Source: Burkholderiales bacterium (lineage in GTDB: Bacteria; Pseudomonadota; Gammaproteobacteria; Burkholderiales; Burkholderiaceae_C). Taken from it: a stretch of DNA of 64,000 bases. Below the pieces are notes generated by a model. That model was not told the DNA's origin, did no database searches, and saw only the letters and a program-made list of their open reading frames with translations. A program made the position numbers and the translations under genes. The stretch covers positions 248,001 through 312,000 of the forward strand of contig JAFKGD010000007.1 of NCBI GenBank assembly GCA_017307855.1. Direction: 5' to 3'. This document shows, piece after piece, positions 46,136 to 64,000 of the stretch (the first letter of the stretch is position 1; every line of letters starts with the position of its first letter).

Positions 46136-46325
46136 AGGTCGCGCTACTCTCCAATCTCAGGCTAGCAATCATGATGTCAACGAGTGCGCGACTTCGATAC
46201 TCCATGCGCCACATCGCTCCGGGCAGCATGGCGAGGATTTCGCACGGACGATAGGTCTGTTCGATTGGCTGAATCTGGGCAGCCACCGCGCGAGGCCGGT
46301 CGGCAGATGCGAAGGTTCCGATCAA

Positions 46326-46364
46326 GGGGTCCTTTTGATTTCAGTGCAAAAAGTGACGTATAAC
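46326..46364 (+). repeat. Tn3-family (IS1071-like) terminal inverted repeat
   Basis: The end starts GGGGTCCTTTTGATTTCAG and continues TGCAAAAAGTGACG. The GGGGTC start, the TTTCAGTGCAA core and AAGTGACG match, as I recall it, the terminal repeat of IS1071/Tn3-family elements with a few mismatches. No second copy was found within the window. Confidence 0.7.
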
Positions 46365-46763
46365 TCTCCAGTACTGACGCGGGGGGGTGGTCGGTAAGTC
46401 ATTGATTGTTCGAACATTGCTGTTCACTTCGCCGCAGCGAATCGTTTTCGGCCCCCAAATCGTCGAGGAGCGCGGCCATGCAAGGCTTGCAAACGTCTTA
46501 CCTGTGCCTGCGCGACATCGCGTGCGAACTCAGCGAGTTCGAGTTGCAGGCGTTTTTCAGCTGCAGTGCACCGAGCACTAGTTGCTGGCGCGATGGCGCA
46601 GCGGCAGCCTCAAGCTGGGCTTGGCACTGCAGATCGGCTTCGCGCTCATGAGCGGCCGGTCCTTGAACAGTGTGCGGGTCGTGCCCCCAAAATTGCTGCG
46701 CCACCTTGACCACGAACTGGGGCTGATGGTGCGCTCCGCGCTGATGATGCGCGCCCAGGTCTG
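46326..46763 (+). mobile_element. Truncated Tn3-family transposon end with transposase (DUF4158) remnant
   Basis: After the terminal repeat, a frame from 46478 reads MQGLQTSYLCLRDIACELSE and FELQAFFSCSAP. It is then lost and resumes in another frame from ~46582 as SGSLKLGLALQIGFALMSGR with SLNSVRVVPPKLLRHLDHEL. This corresponds to the first ~110 residues of a Tn3-family TnpA (DUF4158 domain) with a deletion/frameshift. The remainder of the transposase, the resolvase and the right end are missing; the sequence abuts the autotransporter gene. No active transposase is encoded. Confidence 0.7.
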
Positions 46764-48715: not shown

Positions 48716-48793
48716 GACAGCTCTTGCCTCCCTAAGGTCAGTCAGCGCGGACAGGTGCCAGCGCTACTGTAATGGAAGCAGCGCGTGTCAGCC

Positions 48794-48979
48794 TCAGTGG
48801 CGCCGCGCGCCGTCGCGATAGGCCTGCGGCGTGACGGCGTGCTGGCGCGCGAACGCGCGCTGCAGCGCGTCCACCGAACGGAAACCGCTGCGGCTGGCGA
48901 TGCGGTCCTGCGTCCAGTGCGTCTGCACCAGCAACTGCGCCGGCGTGTGGCACAGCTCAGCCGCGAAGGCGCGAGCAAG
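48794..48979 (-). pseudogene. AraC-family regulator C-terminal remnant
   Basis: On the minus strand the frame reads ARAFAAELCHTPAQLLVQ, then jumps directly to THWTQDRIASRSGFRSVD and ALQRAFARQHAVTPQAYRDG before a stop. This is the second helix-turn-helix of an AraC/GlxA-type regulator. About ten residues normally linking the two parts are missing, and the sensor domain is absent. It probably regulated a neighbouring gene now lost. Confidence 0.6.
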
Positions 48980-49302
48980 GCGCCGGAGACGACATTGATG
49001 CCATTGGAGTCCAGAAACAGGTTACCGGCCTCGAGGGTGAAGGCACGAGGCGCAATGAAGTAGATCAGCGGCGCGCCGGGCGTTGGCGCGCGCGCCCACT
49101 GACAAGCGCCAACAAATCTCGCCGAGTCCGAATACCTGGGTGCTGCAAAGCTCGGTATCTGCAGCGTCACTTCTAGGCCACGATGATGCGGCTTGGCTTG
49201 AGGCAGCCGCACGGCAATGCGCCTCGATTCCCCCGATGAGGGCCCATCTCTGCCCCACTAGACAAGACCCTCATTTGCTCAACACCGATACCCAAACACT
49301 GC
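48980..49302. other. Non-coding or decayed stretch
   Basis: No convincing gene is seen. A minus-strand frame with IYFIAPRAFTLEAGNLFLD and SNGINVVSG is open but unrecognised, and may be another fragment from the same rearranged zone. Confidence 0.4.
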
Positions 49303-50241
49303 TCAAAGCACCAGTTTGCCGGTCGTCCTCGAGGGCTCAATCCTCGCCTCCATCCCCGCAGTGAATTGCAAGTGGTCGGCCTCCATGCCGTCCGAGAAGA
49401 TGACCCCGTTGTCCGGCATGCGCGAGCGCACCCGCAGCGGCGCGCCCGCCAGCACCCGCCCGTGCACCAGCGTGGCCTGAGAGGTGCGCGTGGGGAACGG
49501 CTCGCGCACCGCGAACACCAGGGCCCGCTCCTCCCAGGGCATGGGCTGGTAGTCCTCGTCGTCGGTGCTGGCGCCCAGGCTGCGCGCGATCGCGAGCGAC
49601 CCGGTGACGATGCTTTTGAGCCAGGCGGTGGAGCCCAGGCCGGTGGAGACGATCAACCCCGAGGAGGACTGGAACTCGGTGGTCGACCCGTGCGACAGCT
49701 CGTACAGCGCCGAGGTGTGGCTGCGCGGACCGACGAACAGGTCGTTCACCGCGCGCAGCACCTGGCCGTCGCTCAGTCGTGCCTCGGCCATGGTCACCGT
49801 GCGGGTGTCGCGCCGGTCCGCCGCCACGCCCGGCAGGATGGCGGCGAGATCGGCCGGCTGGAACGGCAGCAGCACGCCGTCCCAGCGCGAGGGCTCGGGG
49901 TTGAGCCCCACCAGCGGCTGGCCCTCGAGGTACTTCATGGTGTTGGCCACCAGGCCGTCCTGGCCCAGGGCCACCACGATGTCGCTCGGCGCGAAGACGA
50001 AGTTGGCCAGCAGCGAACGGTCGACGATCTGGTAGCGCCCCCAGGCCTGCAGGGCCTGCACCGTCACCCGCAGGCTGGCCGCGTAGGCCTCGTTCTCCTT
50101 GAGGTAGTCCGAGAAGTCGGCCCCCAGGTGCTCCACATAGAACCTCGCCTGCCCGAGCGTGTTGTGGCGCGCGATGAGGGTATCGAGCCGCGTGCGCCGC
50201 GTCACCAGCACCACCCGCCGATCGCTGGCGGCGGTGGTCAC
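49303..50241 (-). CDS. NAD kinase-like protein (ATP-NAD kinase superfamily)
   Basis: A 312-residue protein with the diacylglycerol/NAD-kinase-like fold. Recognisable elements are ADFSDYLKENEAYAASLRVT, DIVVALGQDGLVANTMKYL in place of the canonical GGDGT loop, PLVGLNPEPSRWDGVLLPF, and SSGLIVSTGLGSTAWLKSIV, matching the NADK TGSTAY region. The GGDG motif reads GQDG, so kinase activity may be altered. The start overlaps the SPFH stop by four bases, so the two proteins are coupled. Context with NrtR and nicotinamidase supports a role in NAD(P) metabolism. Confidence 0.75.
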   Translation of the reverse strand: MTTAASDRRVVLVTRRTRLDTLIARHNTLGQARFYVEHLGADFSDYLKENEAYAASLRVTVQALQAWGRYQIVDRSLLANFVFAPSDIVVALGQDGLVANTMKYLEGQPLVGLNPEPSRWDGVLLPFQPADLAAILPGVAADRRDTRTVTMAEARLSDGQVLRAVNDLFVGPRSHTSALYELSHGSTTEFQSSSGLIVSTGLGSTAWLKSIVTGSLAIARSLGASTDDEDYQPMPWEERALVFAVREPFPTRTSQATLVHGRVLAGAPLRVRSRMPDNGVIFSDGMEADHLQFTAGMEARIEPSRTTGKLVL

Positions 50242-51290
50242 GCCGACCTCCGCGTGACCGCCGACGCCGCGGCCCCACCGCCCGCGCCCAACAGGGAGTT
50301 GAGCAACTCGGGCGACAGGTTGAGCTGCCCGATTCGCTCGGCCCGCTCGGCGATGCCGCCGAAGGCCTGGGCGATGAGCTGGCCCGGCTGCATGCCCACG
50401 GCCGCCAGCGCCTGCACCACCCGGGGGTCGGCCTTCTCCAGCGCGTCCATCACGGCGCGCACCTTGTGCGCCTGGGCCTCGGCCGCCTGGCGCGTGTTCT
50501 CGGCTTCGCTGGCCACGAAGGCCTTGCGCTGGTTCTCCAGCTCGATGTCGGCGCCCATCTGCTCGGCGCGCAACTCGTTCTGGCGCCGCATGGCCGCGGC
50601 CCGGGCCTCCATCTGTGTCTCCTGGATCTCGCGCTTCTTCACCTCCACCGCGATCTCGGTGTCCAGCTCGTTCTGGCGGATGGCCCGCTCGTTCTGCACG
50701 CCGGCCATGCGCCGCTGCGAGATGGCGTCGTCGGCCGCCTTGAGATTGGCCTCCCGCGCCTCGGCCTCCAGCGCGCGGGCGATGTCGGGCGTGGGCTTGA
50801 TCGCCACCACCGCCACCCCCAGGATCTCCAGCCCCAGCGCCTGCACCTCGGGCTGGCGGCCCAGTTGCTCCTGAACGGCGCGCGCGACCTCGGCCGTGGC
50901 CTTGAGCGCGTTGCGCAGCGACAGGCCCTGGATCACCTGTTGCACGATGGCGCGCACCTGCATCACCACCCGGTCCTGCAGGCGCTCCGGGTCCTCCGAG
51001 GCGTAGGTGGTGCCGTCGGGCTCGAGCGAGAAGTCCATCAACTTGTAGATGCGGCCCGGGTCGCCCACCCGGTAGGTGAGCTCGCCCTGCACCGTCACGC
51101 CCTGGAAGTCGCTGGTCACCAGGTCCAGCATGAAGCCGGCGTCGCGGCTGGCGATCGGCACCGCGACCAGGGAAGTGGTGGGTGCGTAGTAGAAGAAGGA
51201 CAGCCCGGCCCCTTCGCGCACGAGCTTGCCGCCGCGGAACTGCATGAGGTGGGTGGTGGGCTGCGACTTGATGAAGCGGATGCCAAGCAT
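50238..51290 (-). CDS. SPFH (stomatin/prohibitin/band 7) domain protein
   Basis: A 350-residue SPFH protein. The band-7 domain covers roughly residues 20-190 (TSLVAVPIASRDAGFMLDLV, VQGELTYRVGDPGRIYKLMD). A long charged coiled coil follows (AIRQNELDTEIAVEVKKREI, ENQRKAFVASEAENTRQAAE), then a glycine/alanine-rich tail. There is no obvious N-terminal membrane helix, so it may be a peripheral scaffold. ATG 51290 has an AAGGAG ribosome binding site. It is divergent from nrtR across the double palindrome and coupled to the NAD-kinase-like gene. Confidence 0.85.
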   Translation of the reverse strand: MLGIRFIKSQPTTHLMQFRGGKLVREGAGLSFFYYAPTTSLVAVPIASRDAGFMLDLVTSDFQGVTVQGELTYRVGDPGRIYKLMDFSLEPDGTTYASEDPERLQDRVVMQVRAIVQQVIQGLSLRNALKATAEVARAVQEQLGRQPEVQALGLEILGVAVVAIKPTPDIARALEAEAREANLKAADDAISQRRMAGVQNERAIRQNELDTEIAVEVKKREIQETQMEARAAAMRRQNELRAEQMGADIELENQRKAFVASEAENTRQAAEAQAHKVRAVMDALEKADPRVVQALAAVGMQPGQLIAQAFGGIAERAERIGQLNLSPELLNSLLGAGGGAAASAVTRRSA

Positions 51291-51305
51291 TTGGGGCTCC
51301 TTATT

Positions 51306-51347
51306 GAGTTGTACTGTACAACTCTTATGGGTTGTATAGTACAACTC
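51306..51347. promoter_or_regulatory. Two 19-bp palindromes, candidate NrtR operators
   Basis: Site 1 (51306-51324), GAGTTGTACTGTACAACTC, is a perfect inverted repeat with a single central base. Site 2 (51329-51347), GGGTTGTATAGTACAACTC, differs in its left arm at two positions. Centres are 23 bp apart. They sit between the divergent SPFH and nrtR starts, where NrtR would repress both transcripts. Confidence 0.72.
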
Positions 51348-51365
51348 AAACCGGAGATGTCAAGC

Positions 51366-52109
51366 ATGGCCAGCCAACGATCCCCTTCTCGCGTTGCGGC
51401 ACCCGACTTCGAGCGACCGCTGGTCACCGTCGACGTCGTGATCTTCACGGTGCTCGACGAGCAGTTGAAGGTGCTGCTGGTGCGCCGCCCGGAGGCAGCC
51501 ACCGATCCATTCCCGGGCCGCCTGGCCCTGCCGGGCGGATTCGTCAACGTGGACCTGGACGCCAGCCTGGCCGACTGTGCGCTGCGCAAGCTGGGCGAGA
51601 AGACCGGGTTCAGCGCGCCCTACCTGGAACAACTGGGCAGTTGGGGCAGTGCGACGCGCGACCCCCGCGGGTGGTGCACCACCCATGTCTACTTCGCCCT
51701 GGTCCCACCGCCCGCCGACAGCGAGGAGATGGCGTCGGCGGCGTCGGAGTGGATCGAGGTCAACGCGGCCCTGCGCAAGCGCCTGGCCTTCGACCACGCG
51801 GAGATCCTGGCCGCGGCGGTGGAGCGCCTGCGCGGCAAGGTGGAGTACACCTCGCTGCCGGCCTTCCTGCTGGAGGAGCCCTTCACGCTGCCGCAGTTGC
51901 AGCGCACCTACGAGATCGTGCTCGGCCGCCCCATGGACAAGAGCGCGTTTCGCAAGCGCATGCTCGATGCGCAGTTCCTGCTCGAGGCGGGTTCGATCGC
52001 GGGCGACGCGGGGCGTGCGGCCATGGGCTATCGCATCCTCGACCGCGAGCGCGCCGCGGTCTTTCCGCGCACCTTCCGATCGGTCGAATCGCCTGCCAGC
52101 AAGGAGTGA
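51366..52109 (+). CDS. nrtR: NrtR-type regulator (Nudix domain plus winged helix)
   Basis: A 247-residue protein. An N-terminal Nudix-like domain (VDVVIFTVLDEQLKVLLVRR, GRLALPGGFVNVDLDASLAD, CALRKLGEKTGFSAPYLEQL) carries a degraded Nudix box, as in NrtR, which binds ADP-ribose without hydrolysing it. The C-terminal winged helix is FTLPQLQRTYEIVLGRPMDK and SAFRKRMLDAQFLL. NrtR represses NAD biosynthesis genes and is released by ADP-ribose. ATG 51366 follows a GGAG site; ATG 51357 is possible. It is followed 5 bp later by nicotinamidase. Confidence 0.88.
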   Translation: MASQRSPSRVAAPDFERPLVTVDVVIFTVLDEQLKVLLVRRPEAATDPFPGRLALPGGFVNVDLDASLADCALRKLGEKTGFSAPYLEQLGSWGSATRDPRGWCTTHVYFALVPPPADSEEMASAASEWIEVNAALRKRLAFDHAEILAAAVERLRGKVEYTSLPAFLLEEPFTLPQLQRTYEIVLGRPMDKSAFRKRMLDAQFLLEAGSIAGDAGRAAMGYRILDRERAAVFPRTFRSVESPASKE

Positions 52110-52114
52110 CTGCC

Positions 52115-52933
52115 ATGCGCACCCAACTGCTCATCATCGATCCCCAGAACGACTTCTGCGACATCGAGGGCGCCGCCCTGCCGGTGGCCGGCGCCAACGA
52201 AGACCTCAAGCGCCTGGCCGGCCTCATTGACTCGAACGCAAGCCGCATCGGCGGCATCACGGTCACGCTGGACTCGCACGCCAGCGTGGCGGTCGAGCGC
52301 ACCACCTTCTGGCTCGGCCCGGACGGACAGCCCGTGGCGCCGTTCAGCTTCATCACCGCGGACGATGTGCGAGCCGGCTCCTACCGGCCGCGCGACGCCC
52401 GCCTGACCGAACAGGTGATCGGCATGCTCGAGCAACTGGCCGCGGCCGGCAAGGCGGGCATGGTGGTCTGGCCGGTGCACTGCGTCACCGGCACCTGGGG
52501 CCACAACATCCAGGGCGATCTGGCGCGCAGCCTCGCGGCCTGGGAAATGGCGCACCAGCGCGCCGTCACCAAGGTGCTCAAGGGTGAATACCCACTGAGC
52601 GAGCACTTCGGTGTGTTCGAGGCCGACGCGCCCGTGGCCTCGGTGCCGGCCACGCAGTTCAACACCACGCTGGCCACCGCACTGGCCGACGGTGCCGAGG
52701 TGATCGCGATCGCGGGCCAGGCCTCGAGCCACTGCGTGGCGGCCAGCTACGACCAGTTCATGCGGTTCCTGGGCAGGAGGACGCCCGCGGCCACGCCCCG
52801 GGTGGTCCTGCTTCGCGACTGCATGAGCCCGGTGCCCGGATTCGAATCACTCGCCGACGACCTGTTCGACCGGGCGCGCGCGGCAGGCACCGAGGTGATG
52901 ACGGTCGATGAATTCGCCCGCAGCCTCGTCTGA
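52115..52933 (+). CDS. pncA: Nicotinamidase (cysteine hydrolase family)
   Basis: A 272-residue isochorismatase-like hydrolase. The catalytic Asp is in LLIIDPQNDFCDIEGAALP, the catalytic Lys probably in KVLKGEYPLSEHFG, and the nucleophilic Cys in AGQASSHCVAASYDQFMRFL. TVTLDSHASVAVERTTFW holds part of the metal site. It would deamidate nicotinamide to nicotinate for NAD salvage. The ribosome binding site AAGGAG lies at the end of nrtR, so the two form an operon. It is the last chromosomal gene before the Tn7-like element. Confidence 0.85.
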   Translation: MRTQLLIIDPQNDFCDIEGAALPVAGANEDLKRLAGLIDSNASRIGGITVTLDSHASVAVERTTFWLGPDGQPVAPFSFITADDVRAGSYRPRDARLTEQVIGMLEQLAAAGKAGMVVWPVHCVTGTWGHNIQGDLARSLAAWEMAHQRAVTKVLKGEYPLSEHFGVFEADAPVASVPATQFNTTLATALADGAEVIAIAGQASSHCVAASYDQFMRFLGRRTPAATPRVVLLRDCMSPVPGFESLADDLFDRARAAGTEVMTVDEFARSLV

Positions 52934-52977
52934 GGTGGGAAAAAGAACGGAGCGACAACAAGTGTCTCGCGCTCTAA

Positions 52978-53029
52978 GAATTTGCGGCATATCCGAAGTC
53001 GTGTACGGAGTATCCGATAGCGCAAATTC
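52978..53029. repeat. Nested inverted and direct repeats at the element/pncA junction
   Basis: GAATTTGCG (52978-52986) and CGCAAATTC (53021-53029) are inverted, with two direct TATCCGA copies (52990 and 53011, 21 bp apart) between them. The spacing of two helical turns and the position just after pncA fit either TnsB-binding sites at a transposon end or the operator of the downstream ATPase gene. Confidence 0.4.
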
Positions 53030-53201
53030 GTCGTCCGCTCGCGTTCGTCGGCCACTTCGAACTCGAAGCTTGCTTCGCGATGCAACGTGACGTAGCCTGA
53101 CTTCGTGGGCGCTTTGTCCCACGACTCGGGGGTTGCTCTCCGAACGTCCTGCAACACCGCAGGACCTGCACCGCAACCGTTCCACCTTTTTGGAGGCGAA
53201 C

Positions 53202-54947
53202 ATGGTTGCAGATGCCAAGGAGCGCACCGACGCTCGACCCACTTCTTCACTCATTGGCGGACGAGGCTTCCGCCACCCGTTGCTGCTCATCGCAACGGAC
53301 ACGAACAACGCACCTCGGCGATTCGGCGCGTTTCGACGCCTGATCAGACGAGCGCTCTCATCCCCTGTGGAGAGCCCCAGGCGTTCAGAACTTGCCATCA
53401 GGGTCCTCGAAGAGCTCGAGGCCCTTGAGCTCGATGATGACAGCGTTCGGAATTTTCGCAACGAGTGGCTGCACGAGATGGGCCGAAACACGCGAAACGC
53501 CTATCTGCTTGAGGCGTTCGCCATGGTCCAGTTGGCCATGAGTGATCTGGCGCTCGCTCATGGTGCATGGCAAGTGGCGCCGACGTCGCTGGGCAACTAT
53601 GGGCTGCCCAGGCTTGTGCTCGCAGAGACGGCTTCGGCGAGTGCGCCGCCCAAACTTCTGGTTCCCGCATCGGTAGCTGAAACACTCCTCAAGTGCATCG
53701 ACTTGGCGATGGAGGCTGAGCGGGACGCAAAGCTTTCGACTTGGTCCACGCGAGACTGTTTGGCGGTCATCCGTGCCATTGCGGTCCTATCGGTCAACGA
53801 CACGCAGCACTTTCCGTTGCGCGCAGAAGCGGCTCGCAAGCAGTTCTTCGAGAGTGTGGGCATGGGGCTTTGGATTGCGTTGACCAAGCACCTGCGCCAA
53901 CGACGGGATGCCATGGAATGTGCGACTTTATGGAATGGTCGACTGCAGCAGATCGTCGCGCTGAACGTCTTTGGAGGTGACCAAATCGCTGCAATGGCCT
54001 CCACAGCGCAAGGCGCGTTTTCGACCATCGATGGAAGCGCCGACGCCACGCAAACAGCGCATGTGCTTCGGGTGGTTCACGGACCGATCAATCCCGGCAA
54101 CTGCAAGGAAGACAGGGAGGTCATCAAGCAGTACGAGCCATTGCTGGGTTACCTGCCAGTGGCGCACATGCCGCCACTACATCACGTCGAAGAGATCCTG
54201 ATCGCCATGAGGGCCGAGTTCCCCTGGGCGGACGCGGCTATCGACGAACTGGGGGTCTTGCTGCAATCCCGTTGCTTGTTCGGCGTGCAACAACTGCAGC
54301 TACCTCCTGTGCTCGTGGTTGGGTTCCCGGGGTCCGGCAAGACACGATTTGTACGTCGCATCGCGGAACTACTCAAGCTGCCGTTCTTGCCGCTGGGAAT
54401 TGGTGGCATGCATGACAGCAAACCGATTACCGGAACGCCGAGGGGTTGGGCCTCTGGCGAACCGTCGCCACTCTTGAATCTGATGTTGCGGCACCAGAGC
54501 GCGAGCGGCCTTGTGTTGCTCGATGAACTGGACAAAGTGACAAGTCGTACGAGCAATAGCGCGCCCATCACGTCTGTGCTTTTGGGTCTCCTCGAATCGG
54601 AGTCAGCCAAGCGCTGGCACGACACGTTCCTTCAGACGACCTGCGACATGACTCGGCTGAGTTTCTGGGCCACGGCGAACGGGCTTGGCAACATTCCGCG
54701 ACCACTGCTTTCGAGGTTCATCATCGTGTACATGCCTGAGCCTCGGCGGGAGCACATGCCCGTTCTGGCGCGAGGTGTGGTGGAAGACATCAGAATTGAA
54801 TGGGGTCTCCCAGCAGGCGTACTTCCTATACCACCAAGCTCGGTCTATTCGAATGCGAGGCTCAATGCCAGGGAGGTTCGGCGCATGGTTACGCGGTTTC
54901 TGTATGAGTGGGGACAGGAGCATCGGCGGCCAGAGAGGCTGCATTGA
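53202..54947 (+). CDS. Lon-like AAA+ ATPase without protease domain
   Basis: A 581-residue protein. The first ~310 residues are alpha-helical and unrecognised. The AAA+ module has Walker A VVGFPGSGKTR at residues 372-382, Walker B LVLLDELDKV around 438-446, a sensor-1-like FWATANGLGNIPRPLLSRF and a C-terminal lid. The region ahead of Walker A (FPWADAAIDELG) and the DELDK box resemble the Lon ATPase, but no Ser-Lys protease domain follows. ATG 53202 has a GGAGG site. It could be a remodelling or anti-phage ATPase carried by the element; its role in transposition is unknown. Confidence 0.78.
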   Translation: MVADAKERTDARPTSSLIGGRGFRHPLLLIATDTNNAPRRFGAFRRLIRRALSSPVESPRRSELAIRVLEELEALELDDDSVRNFRNEWLHEMGRNTRNAYLLEAFAMVQLAMSDLALAHGAWQVAPTSLGNYGLPRLVLAETASASAPPKLLVPASVAETLLKCIDLAMEAERDAKLSTWSTRDCLAVIRAIAVLSVNDTQHFPLRAEAARKQFFESVGMGLWIALTKHLRQRRDAMECATLWNGRLQQIVALNVFGGDQIAAMASTAQGAFSTIDGSADATQTAHVLRVVHGPINPGNCKEDREVIKQYEPLLGYLPVAHMPPLHHVEEILIAMRAEFPWADAAIDELGVLLQSRCLFGVQQLQLPPVLVVGFPGSGKTRFVRRIAELLKLPFLPLGIGGMHDSKPITGTPRGWASGEPSPLLNLMLRHQSASGLVLLDELDKVTSRTSNSAPITSVLLGLLESESAKRWHDTFLQTTCDMTRLSFWATANGLGNIPRPLLSRFIIVYMPEPRREHMPVLARGVVEDIRIEWGLPAGVLPIPPSSVYSNARLNAREVRRMVTRFLYEWGQEHRRPERLH

Positions 54948-55214
54948 AGCGCCGACTTCGCCATCCTAGACCTAGTGCCCAACCGTGAACGGCATATTCA
55001 GAGGCGTCGAATGGCGGCTGAACGCACTGAGATGCTGTCTTCAGAGTAGAACGTACGCGGCAAAATGGAATTCACTTCGACGTACGCCTGCATGCTGCAT
55101 GGCCTCCATACGCAACGGAAGCTGCCGCAACCACTCTTGCGGCCAGTGCTTGGCATCTCCTTCAATCCCAACCATGGTGGTACGACGTCCTCGATCAATC
55201 TGACAGTTCAGTAT
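54948..55214. other. Intergenic region between the AAA+ ATPase and the tandem repeats
   Basis: Small frames exist on both strands, but none has a supported start or motif. Nothing recognisable is seen here, although the region could hold a transposon end. Confidence 0.4.
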
Positions 55215-55315
55215 GGTGAGAAGAACTCGTTCGTTGTTCTCACCTTTGGTGAACGGTGAGAAGAACTCGTTCATTGTTCTCACCGCTGGTGAAAGGTGAG
55301 AAGAAGGAGTTCACC
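55215..55315 (+). repeat. Tandem 40-bp repeats with internal dyad, two and a half copies
   Basis: Units start at 55215, 55255 and 55295 with GGTGAGAAGAACTCGTTC. The first two end in TTGTTCTCACC, so each 30-bp core is an inverted repeat (GGTGAGAA ... TTCTCACC). The third is cut short to GGTGAGAAGAAGGAGTTCACC. They end 100 bp before the XRE start. Either XRE operators or TnsB-binding repeats at an element end would explain them. Confidence 0.7.
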
Positions 55316-55414
55316 TATTGCCATGTCAACTTCTTGATCTCAACCAGCGACCTGGTCACATACTTTCCGAGCCGTCAAACACAGAAGTTCCGATCAAGGC
55401 GCGAGGTCCCACAC

Positions 55415-55861
55415 ATGAGAATGGCTCTTGAGCCGAACCATCTCGGATGTCCGTCGCCGGACCATCCGCCAGTTCGCGGCGGAGCCAGTAACCGGACCGG
55501 AAAGGTGTCTCAGCCACCTAGCAGCTTTGGCGAAATGCTGTACCGGCTGCGTACCACTAGACGTTTTAGCCAAGCGAGTATGGCTTCTCTGCTTGGTCTC
55601 TCCACGAGCTACTACAGTGAGCTCGAAAACTCAAAGCGATTGGCCACCCCAAGTCGCGTCACAAGCATTGCCTCGTACCTGGAATTAAGCGACGACGATC
55701 GGCAGATGCTGGTTAGCCTAGCCATTCAGGACATGTACTCCGGAAATCCCCTTCCTCCGAGAGTGAGCGCCTGCATTCTCACCCTTAGATCAAGATCCAA
55801 CCAGCTACCGGATGATGTCCTGGATCGTGTGATGTCCCTTTTGCAGGAGGAAACCATGTGA
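55415..55861 (+). CDS. XRE-family helix-turn-helix regulator
   Basis: A 148-residue protein from ATG 55415 (MRMALEPNHLGCPSPDH). It has a Cro/C1-type helix-turn-helix at about residues 36-85: FGEMLYRLRTTRRFSQASMA, SLLGLSTSYYSELENSKRLA and TPSRVTSIASYLELSDDDRQ. The C-terminal segment PDDVLDRVMSLLQEETM is short. A GAGG ribosome binding site precedes it. The frame is open to 55256, but that would start inside the repeats. It sits between the tandem repeats and tnsA and is the natural candidate to bind those repeats and control the element. Confidence 0.78.
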   Translation: MRMALEPNHLGCPSPDHPPVRGGASNRTGKVSQPPSSFGEMLYRLRTTRRFSQASMASLLGLSTSYYSELENSKRLATPSRVTSIASYLELSDDDRQMLVSLAIQDMYSGNPLPPRVSACILTLRSRSNQLPDDVLDRVMSLLQEETM

Positions 55862-56163
55862 AATCAAGCAGACAGATCCCGCTCTGGGGACCTGTCTACC
55901 TGAAGCCTCGGAGAAGTCCCCTCAGCACTGGCACGCCAAGGGTACTCAATCCAAGCACCGGGTCAAGGCAAGTTCGCCCCGTAGCGAAACTCTCTGGCAA
56001 GCCGCAACAACGACCGTGTCAGGCCCACGGGGTTCCGCCGGCTATCACCTCACTCTCGCTCACGAGTTCTTCGTTCGCGCAACTCATCACGCAGGAAAGG
56101 ACGGTCCCAGTTCGCACTGGGTGCGTGATCGCACACGACCATCGTAGGAGGCTGAACATGTAG
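55858..56163 (+). CDS. Possible 101-residue protein coupled to the XRE gene
   Basis: A GTG at 55858 overlaps the XRE stop by four bases (GTGA), opening a frame that reads KSSRQIPLWGPVYLKPRRSP and ends HDHRRRLN. The composition is rich in Pro, Arg and Ser, with no fold or motif recognised. The overlap is suggestive of translational coupling, but the composition is what random GC-rich frames look like. It may instead be a leader region for tnsA. Confidence 0.25.
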   Translation: MKSSRQIPLWGPVYLKPRRSPLSTGTPRVLNPSTGSRQVRPVAKLSGKPQQRPCQAHGVPPAITSLSLTSSSFAQLITQERTVPVRTGCVIAHDHRRRLNM

Positions 56164-56165
56164 AC

Positions 56166-56200
56166 AAAGAAAAACGGCGACCCGCTGTAACGGGTCGCCG
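56166..56200 (-). terminator. Strong hairpin with T-tract reading on the minus strand
   Basis: CGGCGACCCG-CTGTAA-CGGGTCGCCG forms a perfect 10-bp stem. The A-rich run at 56166-56174 becomes a T-tract for minus-strand transcripts, so it would stop transcription leaving the element toward the XRE gene. No minus-strand gene ends here, so it may insulate the operon. Confidence 0.65.
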
Positions 56201-56308
56201 CCGGTTCTCCGGGGATTCCGAAGAAGTCTTTGCAGGACTGCTTCAGTGTACGAGTCGTCAAGCGGTCTCGTCAATCCCCTTTCGTTTCTCCTTTTTCTCG
56301 GGGATTGC

Positions 56309-57202
56309 ATGAGAACGACGAAACGCTTTACGCCCAAGGTGCTGGAACGCTTCGAACGCCAAGGCAGGGGATCAGGCACCTACGACCTCTATGTCCCTTG
56401 GCACCAAGTCGGGCGCGGTGATCCGGCTTCCGTTGGAAGAAGCCACCTCCATATCTGGAACGGCCGACAACGGCACTTGTTGAGCGATCAAGAACTCGTT
56501 GGCCTGTACTTCATCCGGATGCTGACCGATGTGACGGACTGCCTTGAGCAGTATCGGCTATCCATCGAACCATCCAATCATCCGCTGCTCGACTACGACC
56601 AAGGCAACCCACTTAGGCTATTTCCAGGGACGGTCGGACTTTGTCTGCAGCTGGGTGTCAAACACCCGAGAACCAGCGGCGATGGCGCCACAGCTCTGTG
56701 GCGCATGTCCACCGACTTCTTCGTGGTTAGGCGTGGAGGAGATGGGCGCTTCAACGCAACAGCGGTGGCCTGCAAGCAAGATGCCCGATTACCAAAACGC
56801 AAGATGAATCTACTTGAGGTCGAGAGGGCGTACTGGGAATGCAGAGGCATCGACTGGCTCCTCATCACTCCCGAGGTCTTTCACCCCGCCGTCGCGGACA
56901 ACTTAAAAACTGTCGCATGTTGGACGCGCCACCGTGATACCACCGAGCAGGAGAGGACGTTCGCATCAAAGCTCGTCGAGCTCAATCAGTTCAGATCCAT
57001 TACTGAGTTGATTCATCTCCTCACCAAGCATCTCGGCTCGGAGCCGCAAGCGCAGAAGGCTCTGTGGCAATCCGTCGTACACGGCCCTCTGTCCGTCGAT
57101 CTCCGTCGACCTATCAAGTTTCATGTTCCCTTCCGCTTGATAGAACGCGAGGCCTTTCTGGCCTACAACCCTATCGAGATGCGGAGGACCTCGTGGAAAT
57201 GA
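56309..57202 (+). CDS. tnsA: TnsA-type transposase endonuclease subunit
   Basis: A 297-residue restriction-endonuclease-fold protein that in Tn7 cuts the 5' strands at the element ends. The catalytic triad is visible: E62 in LLSDQELVGLYFI, D136 in MSTDFFVV and K156 in TAVACKQDARL. These are close to E63, D114 and K132 of Tn7 TnsA. The family element CLEQYRLSIEPSNHPLLDY lies between, and the C-terminal half is the TnsC-contacting region in Tn7. With TnsA present, transposition should be cut-and-paste. The stop overlaps the tnsB start (ATGA). Confidence 0.88.
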   Translation: MRTTKRFTPKVLERFERQGRGSGTYDLYVPWHQVGRGDPASVGRSHLHIWNGRQRHLLSDQELVGLYFIRMLTDVTDCLEQYRLSIEPSNHPLLDYDQGNPLRLFPGTVGLCLQLGVKHPRTSGDGATALWRMSTDFFVVRRGGDGRFNATAVACKQDARLPKRKMNLLEVERAYWECRGIDWLLITPEVFHPAVADNLKTVACWTRHRDTTEQERTFASKLVELNQFRSITELIHLLTKHLGSEPQAQKALWQSVVHGPLSVDLRRPIKFHVPFRLIEREAFLAYNPIEMRRTSWK

Positions 57203-59487
57203 TCGCCGACTCGACGTTCCGTGTGGTCAATCGCTCGCGAAGTCGAAGCAACATACTTCCAGGCATCTACCGGGTGATACTCGACGCCCCTGAGTTGGAT
57301 GTGACATGCGCGGTCCTCCTCTACTCTGAGGCAAGTTCTCCGACGAAGTCCAAGGGAGGGAGAGCACGTGTAACGATAGAGCGCCTCCGGCGACCTCGAA
57401 AGAAGCCACCCGCGCGGCTGGTCGGCAATCTCCTGTGGCTCGACCGCACGCAACTCCAGGAGCTTCACTCGGCGAAGCTCCTTTTGCCAGTTTCTGTTGA
57501 GCGTCGTTTTGTACCGAATGGATCCGATCCATCGTCAAAGGGTCGCGGAGGAAATAGAGAGCTGGCAAGAATCGATCACGAGGACCGGATCGCCAAGATG
57601 GCGCTCTTTCTGGACTTGGTAAAACTCCAAGAGTGCATCATCGTTCACAAGAGCATTGCTCCACTTGTGAGTGAAACGATGCAAACCAAGCGGGTCAGTC
57701 GCGCCTACATCTACAAGCATTGGTCGTCTTTGTGCAGATGGGGCATGCACGAGTCGAGCCTGTACCCCTTGCGTCATCGCTGTGGCGCCCCAGGGGAAGC
57801 GAGGCCGTGCGACCCGCCCAAGAACGAGGCGCCCACTCGAGGCAAGGCGGGGCGGAAATCTACCGCACAAAGAATCGCACGCGCCACTGGAGTTCCCATT
57901 GCTTCGATTCAGCCTGGCATGAGCACGGACTGGCGCTTGCGGATTCTTGCTGCAGACAAACAGATCCCCAGGCCTAAGCCGCCGATGCCAGCGCGGATAA
58001 AGCTGATCTTGGGCTCATCCTTTGTTGCAACGGCCAAGGATGTTGATGGTGAAGTGAAGTACGAACTAGGCCCGCAGGGATCGTATCCGAACGCCCAGCA
58101 GATTCGACGCGTGCTCATGTGGGATTCGAGTCAGCTCGAGCGTCTAGCGGAGCAAACTACAAAACATCATTTCAACAGCCAGTTGAGAGGTCTGACTGCA
58201 CGAAGCTGGAAGGGTGTACCCGGTCCGGCGCACACCTGGGCGATCGATTCAACGATAGGAGACATCTATCTTCGATCATCGGTGAAACGAGCCTGGATTA
58301 TCGGTCGTCCCATTGTGTACATCATTGTCGACATCTGGTCGACGGCCATCATGGGCTTCTACATTTGCCTCACGGGTCCCAGCTGGTCGACCGCAAAGGT
58401 CGCCATCTTCAACGCGTGCATGTCGCATTCACTTTCCACACGAATTCCTCAGTTCGCGCTGGCAACGCAGTTGGTTCCAGCCCCAACTCTCTGCTACCGC
58501 CTCCTGTGTGACCGCGGCGAGTATCTCTCGGCCGGACACAAGCACACAGCACTCAAGCTCGACTACGACGTCGCCTACACACCTCCCTACCGCGGGGATC
58601 TGAAGGGTACGGTCGAGGTGCAGTTTCGCATCATCAAGGACGAGCAATTCTGGTTCATTCCAGGCGCAATGGACGCTCGTCGACATGAACTCGAGCTGCG
58701 CAAGGTCGATCCGCGAAAGTGCACCTTTACGTTGAAAGACTACGCGGACTACTTATCGATTGCGTTTGCGGATTACAACTTCACTGCAAACCGTAGCGAT
58801 CGAATGACGGGCGAGATGAGAGCTGCCGGCGTGTTCCCATCTCCGGCAGGCCTTTGGCGCTGGGGTCACTCTGTCGGGGCTGCGTATCAGCGTCAAGTGT
58901 TTGAGCATGACCTCGTCGCTGAGCTGCTCCCCGCGGCTACGGCGCGTGTCAAATCAGATGGGGTTTGGCATGCTGGTTGCATGTACACCTCCAATCATAT
59001 TCATGAGCTTGAATGGACCACCCGCGCGCGGAACTTCGGCGGCTGGAACGTACCCGTTCATCATCACCCTGGTGGCATGGAAACGATTTGGACGCCGTCG
59101 CCCAAGGACCACCAGATGTTTGAGATGACCTTGACCGGCGAGTCGAGGGCATCGCCTCACTACAGTATGGATGAGTGGGCAGACGTACTCGCAAAAGAGG
59201 TCATGGACAGGCCCGCTGAAGAACATGCACGGCTTGCGGCCTCCATTCAGTCACGAAGGCGCCTTCAAGAGATCCGGGACAATGCAAATCGCTTGACTCA
59301 AGAAGCGATCGACAAGTTCGACGGGCCGATGCCCACAATGACAGAGGCTCGCCACTTGGAGGAAGCTGCATCACTTGCGCATCCTATGGCGGAGTCTTGC
59401 CCTTTGGAAGTACCTCGGTATGAAGCGGAGATCGCCCACGACGCGATGATGTCCACACTGCTCGAACGCGCAAACCGAGACAGGTAG
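57199..59487 (+). CDS. tnsB: TnsB-type DDE transposase
   Basis: A 762-residue Mu/TnsB-type integrase. The N-terminal ~330 residues are helix-turn-helix DNA-binding domains that should recognise the element ends. The RNase H-like core carries D350 (HTWAIDSTIGDIYLR), D438 (LLCDRGEYLSAG) and E473 (LKGTVEVQFRIIKDEQFW). A Mu-type beta-barrel region and charged C-terminal helices follow (ETIWTPSPKDHQMFE). It joins the 3' ends to target DNA. It starts inside the tnsA stop and ends directly before the tnsC ATG. Confidence 0.92.
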   Translation: MIADSTFRVVNRSRSRSNILPGIYRVILDAPELDVTCAVLLYSEASSPTKSKGGRARVTIERLRRPRKKPPARLVGNLLWLDRTQLQELHSAKLLLPVSVERRFVPNGSDPSSKGRGGNRELARIDHEDRIAKMALFLDLVKLQECIIVHKSIAPLVSETMQTKRVSRAYIYKHWSSLCRWGMHESSLYPLRHRCGAPGEARPCDPPKNEAPTRGKAGRKSTAQRIARATGVPIASIQPGMSTDWRLRILAADKQIPRPKPPMPARIKLILGSSFVATAKDVDGEVKYELGPQGSYPNAQQIRRVLMWDSSQLERLAEQTTKHHFNSQLRGLTARSWKGVPGPAHTWAIDSTIGDIYLRSSVKRAWIIGRPIVYIIVDIWSTAIMGFYICLTGPSWSTAKVAIFNACMSHSLSTRIPQFALATQLVPAPTLCYRLLCDRGEYLSAGHKHTALKLDYDVAYTPPYRGDLKGTVEVQFRIIKDEQFWFIPGAMDARRHELELRKVDPRKCTFTLKDYADYLSIAFADYNFTANRSDRMTGEMRAAGVFPSPAGLWRWGHSVGAAYQRQVFEHDLVAELLPAATARVKSDGVWHAGCMYTSNHIHELEWTTRARNFGGWNVPVHHHPGGMETIWTPSPKDHQMFEMTLTGESRASPHYSMDEWADVLAKEVMDRPAEEHARLAASIQSRRRLQEIRDNANRLTQEAIDKFDGPMPTMTEARHLEEAASLAHPMAESCPLEVPRYEAEIAHDAMMSTLLERANRDR

Positions 59488-60753
59488 ATGAAGGCAGAGG
59501 ACCCTTCAAACCCATACGCGGGCAACCTCCTCACGGAGTGTTTGCCAGGCATTCAATCGTCGGACGCCACTCTCAGTTCCCTGCTCTATCTGCCACCGGA
59601 ACCCACAGATCTGGGCTCGACTCCGAAGCATGTTCGTCTGCATGACTTGATGTCTGTTCGTGATTTGCATGTCCCGACGTTGGTCGAGCGACGCCTGTTT
59701 CATTCAATCGATCTGATGGTACGCCAGGGATACAGCTACAGAGACCCCAGACAAGCGTCTACCTGGGCCTCAGTTAGTGGAGATGCGACTCGCGCCGGCA
59801 TTCGAATTCCACAAGCAACCGCGGCAGCAGTAGAGGGGCTGTCTGGTGTCGGCAAAACACAGGCCTGCCTTCGATGCCTACATGCCTTTGGCCCTCAGGT
59901 CATTCGTCATGAACGATTCCCAAAGGTCATCGGGGGGTTGACCCAAGTCCTGTGGCTGTCCGTAGAGGCTCCACCCTCTGGGCGCTCATCGGACCTTGCG
60001 CGTGCGCTGATGCTTGCGTGGGACGAGGCCACTGGCGGTCGGCGATTCGACAACTGGCTGGCGAAGGAACGAATTCCAGATGGAATGCGAGCTTTGGACG
60101 AATGGCGGCAAGTCGCCGTGTCTGGCTTCCTTGGGATTCTTCATCTCGATGAAATTCAGAATCTCTTCAAGATCTCGTCCCTGAAGCAACGAGTCAACCG
60201 CGCTGGCACCGCAGAACGGCCGGAAATCAGCATCGTAGAAGATCGCGTCGTGCGCTGGTTCCTCAATCTCGTCAACACAGGCCAGATACCAGTGCTTGTG
60301 TCCGGTACGCCGGATGGAATCGGTGCTCTGACCTCGCGCTTGAGTACCTTGCAGCGACTGAATACTGCCGGTTACCATCGGTTCGAACAGTTCTCCGATC
60401 ACACTGCGCCAAGATTTAGGTCCCAGTTTCTGGACGTGCTTGCGCGGTATCAGTATGTTCAGAAGAAGCTCCCGATCGACGACAACCTTGCCAAGCTGAT
60501 CATTGATCTGACCGCAGGCATTCAACGAGTCATCATCGCACTGTGGATCGCTGCTCACCGCGTTGCCTTCGAACGCGCGGATGACAGCTTGCGGCTCGAA
60601 GACTTCATCACGGCAGCTCAAACCTGGCTCGAGCCGCTCGCACCAGCCGTCGCGGCGATTCGGGAAGGAAGCCCATCCAAGATGGCCATGTATGAAGACC
60701 TCGTGCTGCGCGACACGCCATTCTGGTCGGAGTTTTGGAGTCGGTTCTCGTGA
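59488..60753 (+). CDS. tnsC: TnsC-type AAA+ transposition regulator
   Basis: A 421-residue ATPase of the TniB/TnsC type. Walker A is VEGLSGVGKTQACL (residues 115-128), Walker B is ILHLDEIQNLF (D221, E222), and sensor-1-like PVLVSGTPDGIGALTSRLST follows. The extended N-terminus and the C-terminal AMYEDLVLRDTPFWSEFW are likely contacts for the TniQ proteins and TnsAB. It is expected to polymerise on DNA and transmit target choice. It abuts tnsB with no gap and is convergent with tniQ, 99 bp away. Confidence 0.9.
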   Translation: MKAEDPSNPYAGNLLTECLPGIQSSDATLSSLLYLPPEPTDLGSTPKHVRLHDLMSVRDLHVPTLVERRLFHSIDLMVRQGYSYRDPRQASTWASVSGDATRAGIRIPQATAAAVEGLSGVGKTQACLRCLHAFGPQVIRHERFPKVIGGLTQVLWLSVEAPPSGRSSDLARALMLAWDEATGGRRFDNWLAKERIPDGMRALDEWRQVAVSGFLGILHLDEIQNLFKISSLKQRVNRAGTAERPEISIVEDRVVRWFLNLVNTGQIPVLVSGTPDGIGALTSRLSTLQRLNTAGYHRFEQFSDHTAPRFRSQFLDVLARYQYVQKKLPIDDNLAKLIIDLTAGIQRVIIALWIAAHRVAFERADDSLRLEDFITAAQTWLEPLAPAVAAIREGSPSKMAMYEDLVLRDTPFWSEFWSRFS

Positions 60754-60852
60754 GTCTCACTTGTCTTGGGAAGGCGCTACCACTGTTGCAGTCCCCCCAG
60801 TGCCCCGTCCATTGCTTTCCGGTTTACCTATCAGCAACTATGCGAATCTGAG

Positions 60853-61773
60853 TCAATGACTTTTCGTGCACTCTCTTGTTGAGAGAACCATCCCTGAAAT
60901 CGCTTCTTCACTCGTCTCGTACAAGGCCGCGAATACAAGGGCGGCCGACAGCGTAGAGAACATCGCACTCCCTGAGACGTCATCGCTGAACACATGTCTC
61001 GTGAGTCCTTCTTGACTCAAGGCATCGAGCCATCGCCGGTCATAGCAGGCCTGGACTTCTTCTAGTTTTAGCAGGTGACGGACAAGGGTGCAGGCTTCAG
61101 TATTGATCCCAAGATCTTCGGCTCGATACTTGGCTGCAGAAAAGACGGCATCGAGGGGGAGGACAACAACGCCGCCTAGCAGGTGCGAACAGATATCGAA
61201 GAACCGGTACGTCGCGCAATCCGTCGCATCCTTCTCGAACATCAAGTCACTCTCAACCTTGGCCTGCGGCAGCATCTGGGCCGGCGAGGCGTAGAACGCC
61301 TCCGCCTGGCTTATGCCAACGCGAGACAGTGTGGCGCCATGTTTGTCACATCTCCATTGCCCAGGCAGTTGGTGTTCTCGACGCCAGTAGGCATAGCCGT
61401 GAAAGCCAAGATCCTCGCGCACGCATTCTTGGCAAAGATAAGCTTGCGGTCTTGGCACTCGCAACGTGCCCCCGCTGATCATGGAAGCACGGTACTTTCC
61501 TTGCCCCAGCATCCCTCCGGAGACGTCTTTTGTCACTGCACGACGAAGAGGAAACATTGTGTGATGCCGAACATATGACTCAAGGTCCATTGCTGCGATC
61601 TTCGCCAAGAGTTCGACGCGAGGTACGTCACAGAAGTTGACCGATTGCCCTGTGAATAGGCGTAACGCTTGACGTCCATCCGCGACGTTCCGACTCAATC
61701 CGTTCCACCGGAGGACGGCCCCCCAATAGCCGATGGCAAGCTCGCCAGGCTTGGGGGCAGGTACGACGAGCAA
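60853..61773 (-). CDS. tniQ: TniQ-family target-selection protein, short form
   Basis: A 306-residue TniQ protein. The N-terminus VPAPKPGELAIGYWGAVLRW is the TniQ opening (normally ES.GYL). A zinc-binding unit follows: LCQECVREDLGFHGYAYWRR with GQWRCDKHGATLSRVG, giving CxxC and CxxH. The translation start is TTG 61773 with AGAAGG nine bases upstream. It is much shorter than the TnsD at 62213 and lacks its long C-terminal DNA-binding part, resembling the TniQ of Tn402-like or CRISPR-associated elements. It is the last gene of the minus-strand operon, 18 bp after the HTH gene. Confidence 0.85.
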   Translation of the reverse strand: MLVVPAPKPGELAIGYWGAVLRWNGLSRNVADGRQALRLFTGQSVNFCDVPRVELLAKIAAMDLESYVRHHTMFPLRRAVTKDVSGGMLGQGKYRASMISGGTLRVPRPQAYLCQECVREDLGFHGYAYWRREHQLPGQWRCDKHGATLSRVGISQAEAFYASPAQMLPQAKVESDLMFEKDATDCATYRFFDICSHLLGGVVVLPLDAVFSAAKYRAEDLGINTEACTLVRHLLKLEEVQACYDRRWLDALSQEGLTRHVFSDDVSGSAMFSTLSAALVFAALYETSEEAISGMVLSTRECTKSH

Positions 61774-61791
61774 TCTGGGGGCCCTTCTAGC

Positions 61792-62136
61792 CTACAACCG
61801 ACTGATCGGCGTAGGTCGCAATGCAGAGAGGGACCGAATGACGGTTGACAATGCCTTTGCGTGCCCGGCCGATCCGTCCCACGCAGAACGCAACGCGTCG
61901 ACAAGCTCTTCGTTGCCCCTCACCGCATCGGCCGTCACGCCGACTTCGAAGCGCTCGACGTAGAGGCACACATCTTCAAGCAAGCGAGATCTACGCAGCC
62001 CTCGCCCGTTCAAGATCCGGCTTACCTGCGACTGACTGGCACCAACGGCAGACGCAATTTGCGCCTGGGAAATGCCGCGCTGTCTGCACGCCTCCCTAGC
62101 GTTGAGCAACCTGGCGAGCGACGCTGTTTCGAGCAT
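61792..62136 (-). CDS. Helix-turn-helix regulator between tnsD and tniQ
   Basis: A 114-residue XRE/Xre-like protein. The helix-turn-helix is ACRQRGISQAQIASAVGASQ and SQVSRILNGRGLRRSRLLED. The C-terminal half is alpha-helical with no known motif. The ATG at 62136 lies at or next to the predicted transcription start, so the mRNA may be leaderless; a 12-residue longer version from 62172 is less likely. Small XRE-type regulators also accompany tniQ in several Tn7-like elements, so control of tniQ is probable. Confidence 0.8.
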   Translation of the reverse strand: MLETASLARLLNAREACRQRGISQAQIASAVGASQSQVSRILNGRGLRRSRLLEDVCLYVERFEVGVTADAVRGNEELVDALRSAWDGSAGHAKALSTVIRSLSALRPTPISRL

Positions 62137-62142
62137 CCATAA

Positions 62143-62172
62143 AGCATAATCTAGCGCATATTTGCATGTCAA
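62143..62172 (-). promoter_or_regulatory. Sigma-70-like promoter for the HTH-tniQ transcript
   Basis: Minus-strand TTGACA (62167-62172) and TATGCT (62143-62148) are spaced by 18 bp, in the 40-bp gap between the tnsD stop and the HTH start. The predicted start falls within a few bases of the ATG at 62136. This promoter would let HTH-tniQ be expressed separately from tnsD. Confidence 0.6.
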
Positions 62173-62212
62173 CCATCATGCACAAAGACAGGAAAGCGGC
62201 CGGGCTGCGCAA

Positions 62213-63955
62213 TCAGAGTAGCTCGCTCGGGGAAGTGGAAGTTGCGCGTCTTGTAAGGACGGTCTCGAGCGCTCGCTGCGTCAAGGGCAGCCGTTGTAGT
62301 TGACCTAGTTTCGCCTTCAGCTCTGGAAGGACCTGGTACAACTGCCAGAGTCGCAACGTTGTTGCCCCGTTCTTCGACAGCGACAGCGCAGTCTGAAAGA
62401 CACGTGCACTGAGCTCCAAATCACGGACATCCCAACGAACCGCTGGGCTCGCCCTGCGGGCACTTTCTTTCGGAGCAGGCGGAAGGTTGGCCCGAAGCCA
62501 GGCGGTGTCGTTGCGATACAGCCACGCATAAGCGGCTGGCTCCAGTTTTCTCATCCACTTCAAGCCCTGATGTTCGCCACTTGCCAGAAGGGATAGCCAC
62601 GTCGAACGTGCGCGCTCTCGGGATCTCGCTTTCCTAGCAGCGACCCATTGGGCGTGCAGCCCCACCTCGGTCATGAGGATGCGAGTGATGGTCCCACTCG
62701 AAATGCTATACCGCTGAGCGAGTTCATTTCTGTCGTCGCCAAATTGAAGCGCCTGCAAGATTGAAAGCAGGCTTTCCGCCGTCAGCTTCTTCGACCTACG
62801 CTTCGTGGAAATCCCAGAAGATGCTGCCCATGCCATGGCGGTCTTGACGTCCACTCCGTACTCACGCGCTGCTGATGTGGCAGACGCCCCTTCGCTCATG
62901 AACGCCACCAGTCGAACGCGCACGTCCTCCTTATCAGTTGCCCCCTGACTGAGTTCCTTGTTCACCTCCGGCCAACAGTCCCTTTCGCTGGGATGCGCGA
63001 GTTCCGCTCGAAGATCATCCACGTCGTCAAACAGCCAGCTCGCGACGACCATCCATCGAAGCGGATGCGTTCCACTTCTCATCGGCCGCAGAAGTCGACC
63101 CAATTGTGATTTCGCCTCTTCAACGGAGCTCGGCAGAGCTGCTAGTTCCGGAATACGTCGAAGTGGTCGTACATGCTGAAGGAAGGAGCTTGCGGCATCT
63201 TCGAGCCGCAGCCTGCCCGATGTAAGAAGCCAGCCATTGGCCAGCATGCGGGATCTCACCGCGGCCTGGAAGCGATGCCGGCTCAACCAGCCATCCTCCG
63301 TTATGGACTCCACCAGATCGACGGTCATGGTTGCGAGCTTGAGTGCACTTGCTTGCATCCAGTCCGTTCTCAAAGCCTCAAGACTGTGTTGATCTTCCTC
63401 AGCAGGAAGATGCCACTGGAAACGAGCCACCCCGGTCGCTTTCAGCGCCGACTCCTGCACAGGAATCTTGTGCTCCGGGCACATCCAGACCCCGGGGTAT
63501 TGAAGATGGCCTCGCCAATAGACCCAACCACACTCCACGAGATCACGATGCCTGCACTGAGGGCAAGACTTGAGCGGGTGATGCGCACGAAACCGACTCG
63601 TCAGAAGCCCCAATCGATACTTCAGATGTGCCACGGAGGCGCTTCGCATCATGACAACTGCATCCTGCACTTCACCCGCGCCTCGAAACGGAGCGTAGAA
63701 CTTCAGCACAGTACGCTGTCTGGCAATCTCGTTCGCCGAACCAAGAAGCCCTTGCGTTCGATCCGCGAACACATCCAACGCGCAGGGAAAGTCATGTTGC
63801 GTCCCTCGCCTCGGTGAACCGAAAAGAATCTCCGTAGACTGGGATGAGTTCGAAAATCCCCAGAGGCGATGATGCCGACTGCAGAGGCTGAACAGGGTCT
63901 CGCCCGTCAACCAAGGAAGAACCGCAGAATTGAATGGCAGAAGCTCCATGGCCAT
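62213..63955 (-). CDS. tnsD: TnsD/TniQ-family target-site selector, long form
   Basis: A 580-residue TnsD protein. The N-terminal TniQ domain begins NSAVLPWLTGETLFSLCSRH. The zinc unit is KSCPQCRHRDLVECGWVYWR with WMCPEHKIPVQESAL. A long C-terminal part has helix-turn-helix segments (GASATSAAREYGVDVKTAMA; RNELAQRYSISSGTITRILM) and the TnsD block KLEPAAYAWLYRNDTAWLRA. In Tn7, TnsD binds a specific chromosomal attachment sequence and directs insertion beside it. The target gene is not known; pncA adjoins the element on the left. ATG 63955 leaves 45 bp to the window edge. Confidence 0.88.
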   Translation of the reverse strand: MAMELLPFNSAVLPWLTGETLFSLCSRHHRLWGFSNSSQSTEILFGSPRRGTQHDFPCALDVFADRTQGLLGSANEIARQRTVLKFYAPFRGAGEVQDAVVMMRSASVAHLKYRLGLLTSRFRAHHPLKSCPQCRHRDLVECGWVYWRGHLQYPGVWMCPEHKIPVQESALKATGVARFQWHLPAEEDQHSLEALRTDWMQASALKLATMTVDLVESITEDGWLSRHRFQAAVRSRMLANGWLLTSGRLRLEDAASSFLQHVRPLRRIPELAALPSSVEEAKSQLGRLLRPMRSGTHPLRWMVVASWLFDDVDDLRAELAHPSERDCWPEVNKELSQGATDKEDVRVRLVAFMSEGASATSAAREYGVDVKTAMAWAASSGISTKRRSKKLTAESLLSILQALQFGDDRNELAQRYSISSGTITRILMTEVGLHAQWVAARKARSRERARSTWLSLLASGEHQGLKWMRKLEPAAYAWLYRNDTAWLRANLPPAPKESARRASPAVRWDVRDLELSARVFQTALSLSKNGATTLRLWQLYQVLPELKAKLGQLQRLPLTQRALETVLTRRATSTSPSELL

Positions 63956-64000
63956 AGCAGCTCAGGTCGACGATCCGTCGCCAGGGAGGGGCATGGGAGC

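Follow-up and report, generated by a model that had tools for sequence, protein, structure and literature searches.

The window considered here is a stretch of 64,000 nucleotides in contig C14 of the genome of a Burkholderiales bacterium (G000), and the DNA beyond it was also read, with the numbering continued past its last base. It holds most of a Tn7-like transposon equipped with two target selectors of the TniQ family, namely a long TnsD and a short TniQ, the latter preceded by a gene for a small XRE-type helix-turn-helix (HTH) protein. The features on which the argument depends are the following.

15276..15440, plus strand: left transposon end with the terminus TATTCTGATCAAATAATGTCG and TnsB-type sites near 15293, 15361 and 15416 (pattern search)
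56309..57202, plus strand: tnsA, with its ATG at 56309; TnsA N-terminal domain PF08722 at 1.7e-8, scored on a longer open reading frame (ORF) from 56246
57199..59487, plus strand: tnsB, 762 residues; matches Tn7 TnsB (PDB 7pik) at 1.2e-37, with no Pfam match
59488..60753, plus strand: tnsC, 421 residues; PF13401 (AAA_22) at 5.6e-7
60853..61773, minus strand: tniQ, 306 residues; PF06527 at 2.1e-8; a TniQ core without a C-terminal DNA-binding extension (alignment)
61792..62136, minus strand: XRE-type HTH gene, 114 residues; HTH_31 at 1.3e-7; its homologs immediately precede tniQ in five other genomes
62137..62175, minus strand: putative promoter/operator TTGACATGCAAATATGCGCTAGATTATGCTTTATGG with TATGC half-sites (sequence motif)
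62213..63955, minus strand: tnsD, 580 residues, the glmS-homing selector; PF15978 at 5.8e-49; attTn7 insertions in genomes G821 and G822

The ORFs bear out the gene order proposed in an earlier, sequence-only reading of this DNA: tnsA, tnsB and tnsC run on the plus strand, tnsA and tnsB sharing a 4-bp ATGA overlap and tnsB and tnsC abutting with zero gap, and the TniQ-family genes of 580 and 306 residues lie on the minus strand with the XRE-type gene between them. The Pfam and PDB matches to this gene set equally uphold a Tn7-like element with two TniQ-family selectors. The opposed layout of tnsABC and selectors is present as described, but it is not unique, as L034 and L105-L107 also have tnsD and/or tniQ opposing tnsABC. 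With one long TnsD and one short TniQ within a single element, the locus is of the dual TniQ-TnsD type, and the predicted structure of the short protein (pLDDT 73) matches residues 1-318 of Tn7 TnsD (8glu) at 3.3e-6, i.e. the TniQ core.

The element extends well beyond the interval 52950..64000 first assigned to it. It spans 15276-72699 (57,424 bp), its limits being set by breaks in identity with two other assemblies, Hydrogenophaga borbori LA-38 (G821) and the metagenome-assembled genome Hydrogenophaga sp. ACE_PRO41 (G822), whose fetched pieces cover it end to end at 99.98-100% identity. The match breaks off at the same base on both element sides, on the left at exactly 15276, and the glmS-side chromosome aligns between the assemblies at only 77-85% identity. 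The 5-bp target duplication is perfect in both G821 (ATCGA) and G822 (TCACC), the left flank equalling the right, and the right end lies 23 and 24 bp, respectively, beyond the glmS stop codon, within the roughly 23-25 bp that mark the attTn7 position. These near-identical copies over divergent flanks, together with the duplications and the glmS spacing in two genomes, identify the element as a complete and recently mobile Tn7-like transposon that homes to glmS. A single uninterrupted 57.4-kb unit common to three genomes likewise gives no sign contrary to the earlier supposition that both TniQ proteins belong to one element.

The left end carries three spaced TnsB-type sites within 15293-15428 and the right end, on the glmS side, three abutting 20-bp repeats of the TnsB type (repeat search), an arm layout also described for Tn7 in the accessible part of PMC10702557. 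The terminal bases are TGT on the right and TAT on the left, identical in all three copies. An element end near 52950 was considered and discarded, no repeated TnsB-type sites being found there, and the notion that L054 and L055 are copies from the same species was dismissed on the divergence of their flanks. The window's copy lacks approximately 30 bp near 15422, within the left end, that are present in G821 and G822.

The insertion in the window's own genome has a different appearance. No target duplication is seen (the flanks read GGTTT and CCAGA), yet both ends are intact to the last base. The right end joins the minus-strand glmS within its last codons (72644-72710; L003:10644-10710), and this sole glmS of the genome, which otherwise has one 32% amidotransferase match, terminates in VFLTNKVENSEIESKTKQ, encoded by the transposon end, and not in the AKSVTVE that forms the C-terminal end in 18 of the 18 related glmS genes read (a 19th, from G008, is a fragment only). 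A pattern search did not find the missing tail codons elsewhere in the window's genome, and in E. coli GlmS this tail holds a catalytic lysine. At the other side, the left end has replaced the beginning of an SDR gene; its relatives start a few residues further upstream. This arrangement is compatible with an assembly chimera, with an aberrant insertion accompanied by a deletion and with recombination between two copies. Elsewhere, G005 has a second glmS 3' tail after the glmS stop (L012:3333-3520), as if insertion and excision had been repeated at attTn7, and G007 shows a Tn7-type end about 23 bp beyond glmS along with a piece of TnsB 48% identical to that of the window (L084:11240-13190).

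The XRE gene of the window likely starts at ATG 62136, giving 114 residues, rather than at TTG 62172, the stretch of the longer ORF ahead of this ATG being promoter-like. Among 399 genomes of the order, 7 gave a match to the protein at E 1e-5; five of these have the gene adjoining tniQ (G000, G292, G135, G039 and G322) and G296 does not, G229 being left out of this count. A profile search of 369 genomes of the class gave three with a match at E 1e-6 (G000, G424 and G773). In every one of the six linked loci the gene immediately precedes tniQ, these being the five above and G424, where tnsD, the HTH gene and tniQ share one strand; near the three XRE places of G773 there is no TniQ match, and a weak TnsB-like match (2e-4) lies near one of them. 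A supposed HTH-TniQ fusion in G296 was rejected, its 489-residue ORF giving no TniQ match. Foldseek searches with a model of the XRE protein (mean pLDDT 76) found weak resemblance to control proteins and to repressors of the XRE type, the best E being 0.17 and the probability reaching 0.98. Against 72,556 plasmid records, the XRE protein gave no match at E 1e-3 and the tnsABC DNA none either, and all TnsD and TniQ matches were below 60% identity.

Five TniQ loci of the same broad clade (G167, G162, G364, G390 and a G135 fragment) have no XRE homolog, the best tblastn hit standing at E 1.4. In G167, the 303-residue TniQ adjoins a TnsD 36% identical to that of the window. The existence of such HTH-less sister TniQs speaks for the XRE gene being an optional regulator.

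A separate observation concerns two elements with unlike TnsB-site sequences (L063:8591 and L064:4574), which terminate 82 and 84 bp ahead of a gene of the sigma-70 family resembling rpoH, a name that follows from its Pfam domains and length. Their 389-residue TniQs are sisters (100/99), a relation by which this sigma-factor site may represent a homing site. None of the open-licence papers listed in literature searches deals with a sigma-factor Tn7 site.

Immediately upstream of ATG 62136 stands TTGACA-N18-TATGCT. The private promoter of the sequence-only reading is therefore plausible, but its single tnsD-HTH-tniQ operon is not required, since HTH-tniQ with a promoter of its own need not share an operon with tnsD. 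At least two TATGC/GCATA half-sites fall in the 45 bp before the XRE start in six of six linked loci, compared with 0.05-0.78% of all 45-bp windows in those loci, counts that describe rather than test the motif, as it was derived post hoc from the same six promoters. Half-site pairs falling within 40 bp number just two over the 81 kb examined around the element, one in the XRE promoter and one inside herA. The promoters of the window and G292 are alignable along their length, and the unlinked XRE gene of L078 has no half-sites in its promoter.

Taken together, we consider it probable that this is a complete mobile Tn7-like element in which TnsD provides homing to glmS, the short TniQ acts as a second selector and the XRE protein is an autorepressor of HTH-tniQ. 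By analogy with Tn7, TnsA and TnsB would carry out cut-and-paste transposition, with TnsC as the bridge. TnsD directs insertion to the glmS 3' end, as the ends, 5-bp duplications and spacing in the two other genomes show. The short TniQ would select targets of another class, in all probability mobile DNA, like the second selectors of two-pathway Tn7 relatives. In an established element, the XRE protein may bind the TATGC/GCATA half-sites of its own promoter and repress HTH-tniQ, and entry into a naive cell could set off a burst of second-pathway activity, a role analogous to that of the Xre regulators of I-F3 elements. Several points weigh against this account. The right end is present once per genome in all three, and no second-pathway insertion was seen among them; besides the post hoc origin of the motif, start codons were shifted for three of the six loci (the window, L067 and L075); a simple shuffle test on the L064 promoter gave p 0.13; and the 4-bp translational overlap of XRE gene and tniQ is equally compatible with a protein complex.

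An alternative, which we hold to be unlikely, is a split selector in which the short TniQ would read DNA through the XRE protein, much as the TniQ of Tn6022 does through TnsF. The XRE-tniQ pair is indeed kept in six loci, across three visible cores that look unrelated (TnsB 13-17% identity), and the 4-bp overlap is found in three of them (G292, G135 and G039) and, by longest ORF, also in G322 and G424, the window having a gap of 18 bp. The HTH protein is better conserved between the window and G292 than is TniQ (64% versus 34% identity), its recognition helix QSQ(V/I)SR is invariant in all six, and the window's TniQ ends after its core. Such a partnership is harder to reconcile with the HTH-less sisters of 303 residues (L105) and 370-477 residues (L106-L108), with the long C-terminal extensions that the other HTH-linked TniQs carry of their own (alignment), or with the location of the TATGC/GCATA motif in the HTH promoter and its absence, by inspection, from the glmS and sigma-factor sites. 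The broader proposal that the XRE protein and a core-only TniQ make up a new split selector, passed as a cassette from one unrelated Tn7-like core to another, is to be regarded with the same doubt. If selection were split in this manner, new target sites would be reachable by altering one 114-residue protein.

More doubtful is the possibility that the short TniQ is a decaying duplicate, with TnsD alone functional and the XRE gene a bystander regulator. The divergence of this TniQ, its want of a C-terminal extension and the restriction of all insertions seen to glmS would agree with decay, but the zinc-finger Cys and His residues aligned as invariant are intact, nothing interrupts the reading frame and six loci retain the HTH-tniQ order. 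Least probable of all is that the short TniQ serves a partner encoded elsewhere in the element, such as a Lon-like AAA+ protein (53133-54947), or by the host, for while the TniQ cores of CRISPR transposons and Tn6022 are described as working with partners in the accessible part of PMC10293859, the scanned ORFs gave no match to a Cas model.

The proposal that a CRISPR system or other partner might lie past 64000 found no support on reading further. The 28 element ORFs scanned with PADLOC, a part of the total, gave no match to Cas models other than TniQ itself, and no 20-mer is present at three or more copies in the whole element; over this scope neither cas genes nor an array are seen, and the element does not look like a CRISPR-associated transposon. 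The remaining PADLOC matches were to generic ABC-type ATPases and one HTH. Past 64000, the right cargo consists of two gene pairs, SbcCD/Rad50-like and DUF4297-HerA, and of one ORF that neither Pfam nor PADLOC matches. The DUF4297-HerA genes, an anti-phage pair at 68192-71193 (L003:6192-9193), score above curated NCBIfam cut-offs. No rRNA, tRNA or riboswitch features were found in the window, and its other features are as follows.

15441..52940, no strand assigned: left cargo, comprising two clusters of branched-chain-type ABC transporter and acyl-CoA catabolism genes (AMP ligases, acyl-CoA dehydrogenase, thiolase)
15441..52940, no strand assigned: further left cargo, comprising a 703-residue repeat-rich ORF and Band7-like, Nudix-like and nicotinamidase-like genes
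53133..54947, plus strand: 604-residue AAA+ protein with a Lon-like ATPase region; Pfam AAA at 2.2e-10, NCBIfam lon at 1e-24, far under the cut-off
55215..55312, no strand assigned: three 40-bp spaced repeats GGTGAGAAGAACTCGTTC (repeat search), a possible operator before the XRE gene preceding tnsA
55256..55861, plus strand: second XRE-type regulator, upstream of tnsA; HTH_31 at 9.6e-11; true start probably further in

The left-cargo names rest on Pfam matches for 9 ORFs, among them those of the two transport and acyl-CoA clusters, and on a separate, weak isochorismatase match, the remaining names coming from reading of the ORFs. The Lon-like AAA+ gene stands just inside the tns block, and G039 and G322 also have another XRE gene beside tnsA.

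In the TnsB and TnsC trees, the cores L066, L034, L105, L106 and L107 form one clade (100/100), and the TnsD tree rejects that clade (approximately unbiased (AU) test, p 5.4e-5), so that, within this set, the selectors have not shared the history of the cores. Window TnsD is 36% identical to that of L107 and 22% to that of L104, a Tn7 type, and window TnsB 15% and 22%, respectively. Exchange of the window's own TnsD as a cassette is suggested, with AU p values short of significance: 0.065 for grouping its TnsD with Tn7-type TnsDs, 0.123 and 0.227 for its TnsB and TnsC with the other core clade, 0.142 for a TnsD clade of L034 and L105-L107 without the window and 0.243 for a TnsB clade of Tn7 types without it. 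The TnsD and TniQ of the window fall in different clades, with no look of recent duplication. Of the six HTH-linked TniQs, four belong to a nine-row set (98/96) along with five unlinked ones, L075 adjoins this set (89/91) and L065 lies elsewhere (84/92); a single origin of all six was rejected (AU p 1.2e-5), long branches being present. The locus adds an apparent example of selector genes with a history unlike that of the transposase core.

The locus bears on the choice and the timing of the second route in non-CRISPR relatives of Tn7 that have a short second TniQ, since its exact ends, defined homing site, three near-identical copies and predicted operator make both questions testable in a laboratory strain. 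What emerges is a recurrent, putatively regulatory XRE-tniQ module in a dual-selector Tn7-like element. Among the open-licence papers listed in literature searches, none describing this module or an XRE-TniQ target pair was found, and the accessible part of PMC10293859 does not mention an XRE partner of TniQ. The element resembles Tn7 in its glmS site, 5-bp duplication, TnsB-type sites (three spaced on the left, abutting on the right), TnsB and TnsD homology and possession of two selectors. It differs in that its second selector is a TniQ, no TnsE being recognized among its genes, for which no profile search was made, and in having selectors convergent to tnsABC, internal tns genes, a left terminus of TAT instead of TGT, and a TnsD only 22% identical to that of the TnsE-type Tn7 relative L104. 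The pairing of a short TniQ with an adjoining gene for a DNA-binding protein recalls TniQ-TnsF of Tn6022, although TnsF is a 498-residue zinc-finger/recombinase-fold protein (PMC10293859, accessible part) and the XRE protein has 114 residues. Xre proteins RtaC and RtbC regulate type I-F3 CRISPR transposons, with their two-pathway lifestyle, and a figure legend on the domain organization of TniQ mentions XRE (PMC11406308, accessible part); by description, these are likewise XRE regulators of a second pathway within a Tn7-like element, whereas the window's element has no CRISPR parts. Close counterparts, too, are the dual tniQ-tnsD loci, reported to number 1,048 (Faure 2023; PMC10293859, accessible part), which include CAST-less relatives of Tn7017 and similarly place a long TnsD and a short TniQ near one tnsABC. 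Elements with both TnsD and TniQ are thus already known, and the less usual feature here is the XRE gene between them, with its own predicted operator before tniQ.

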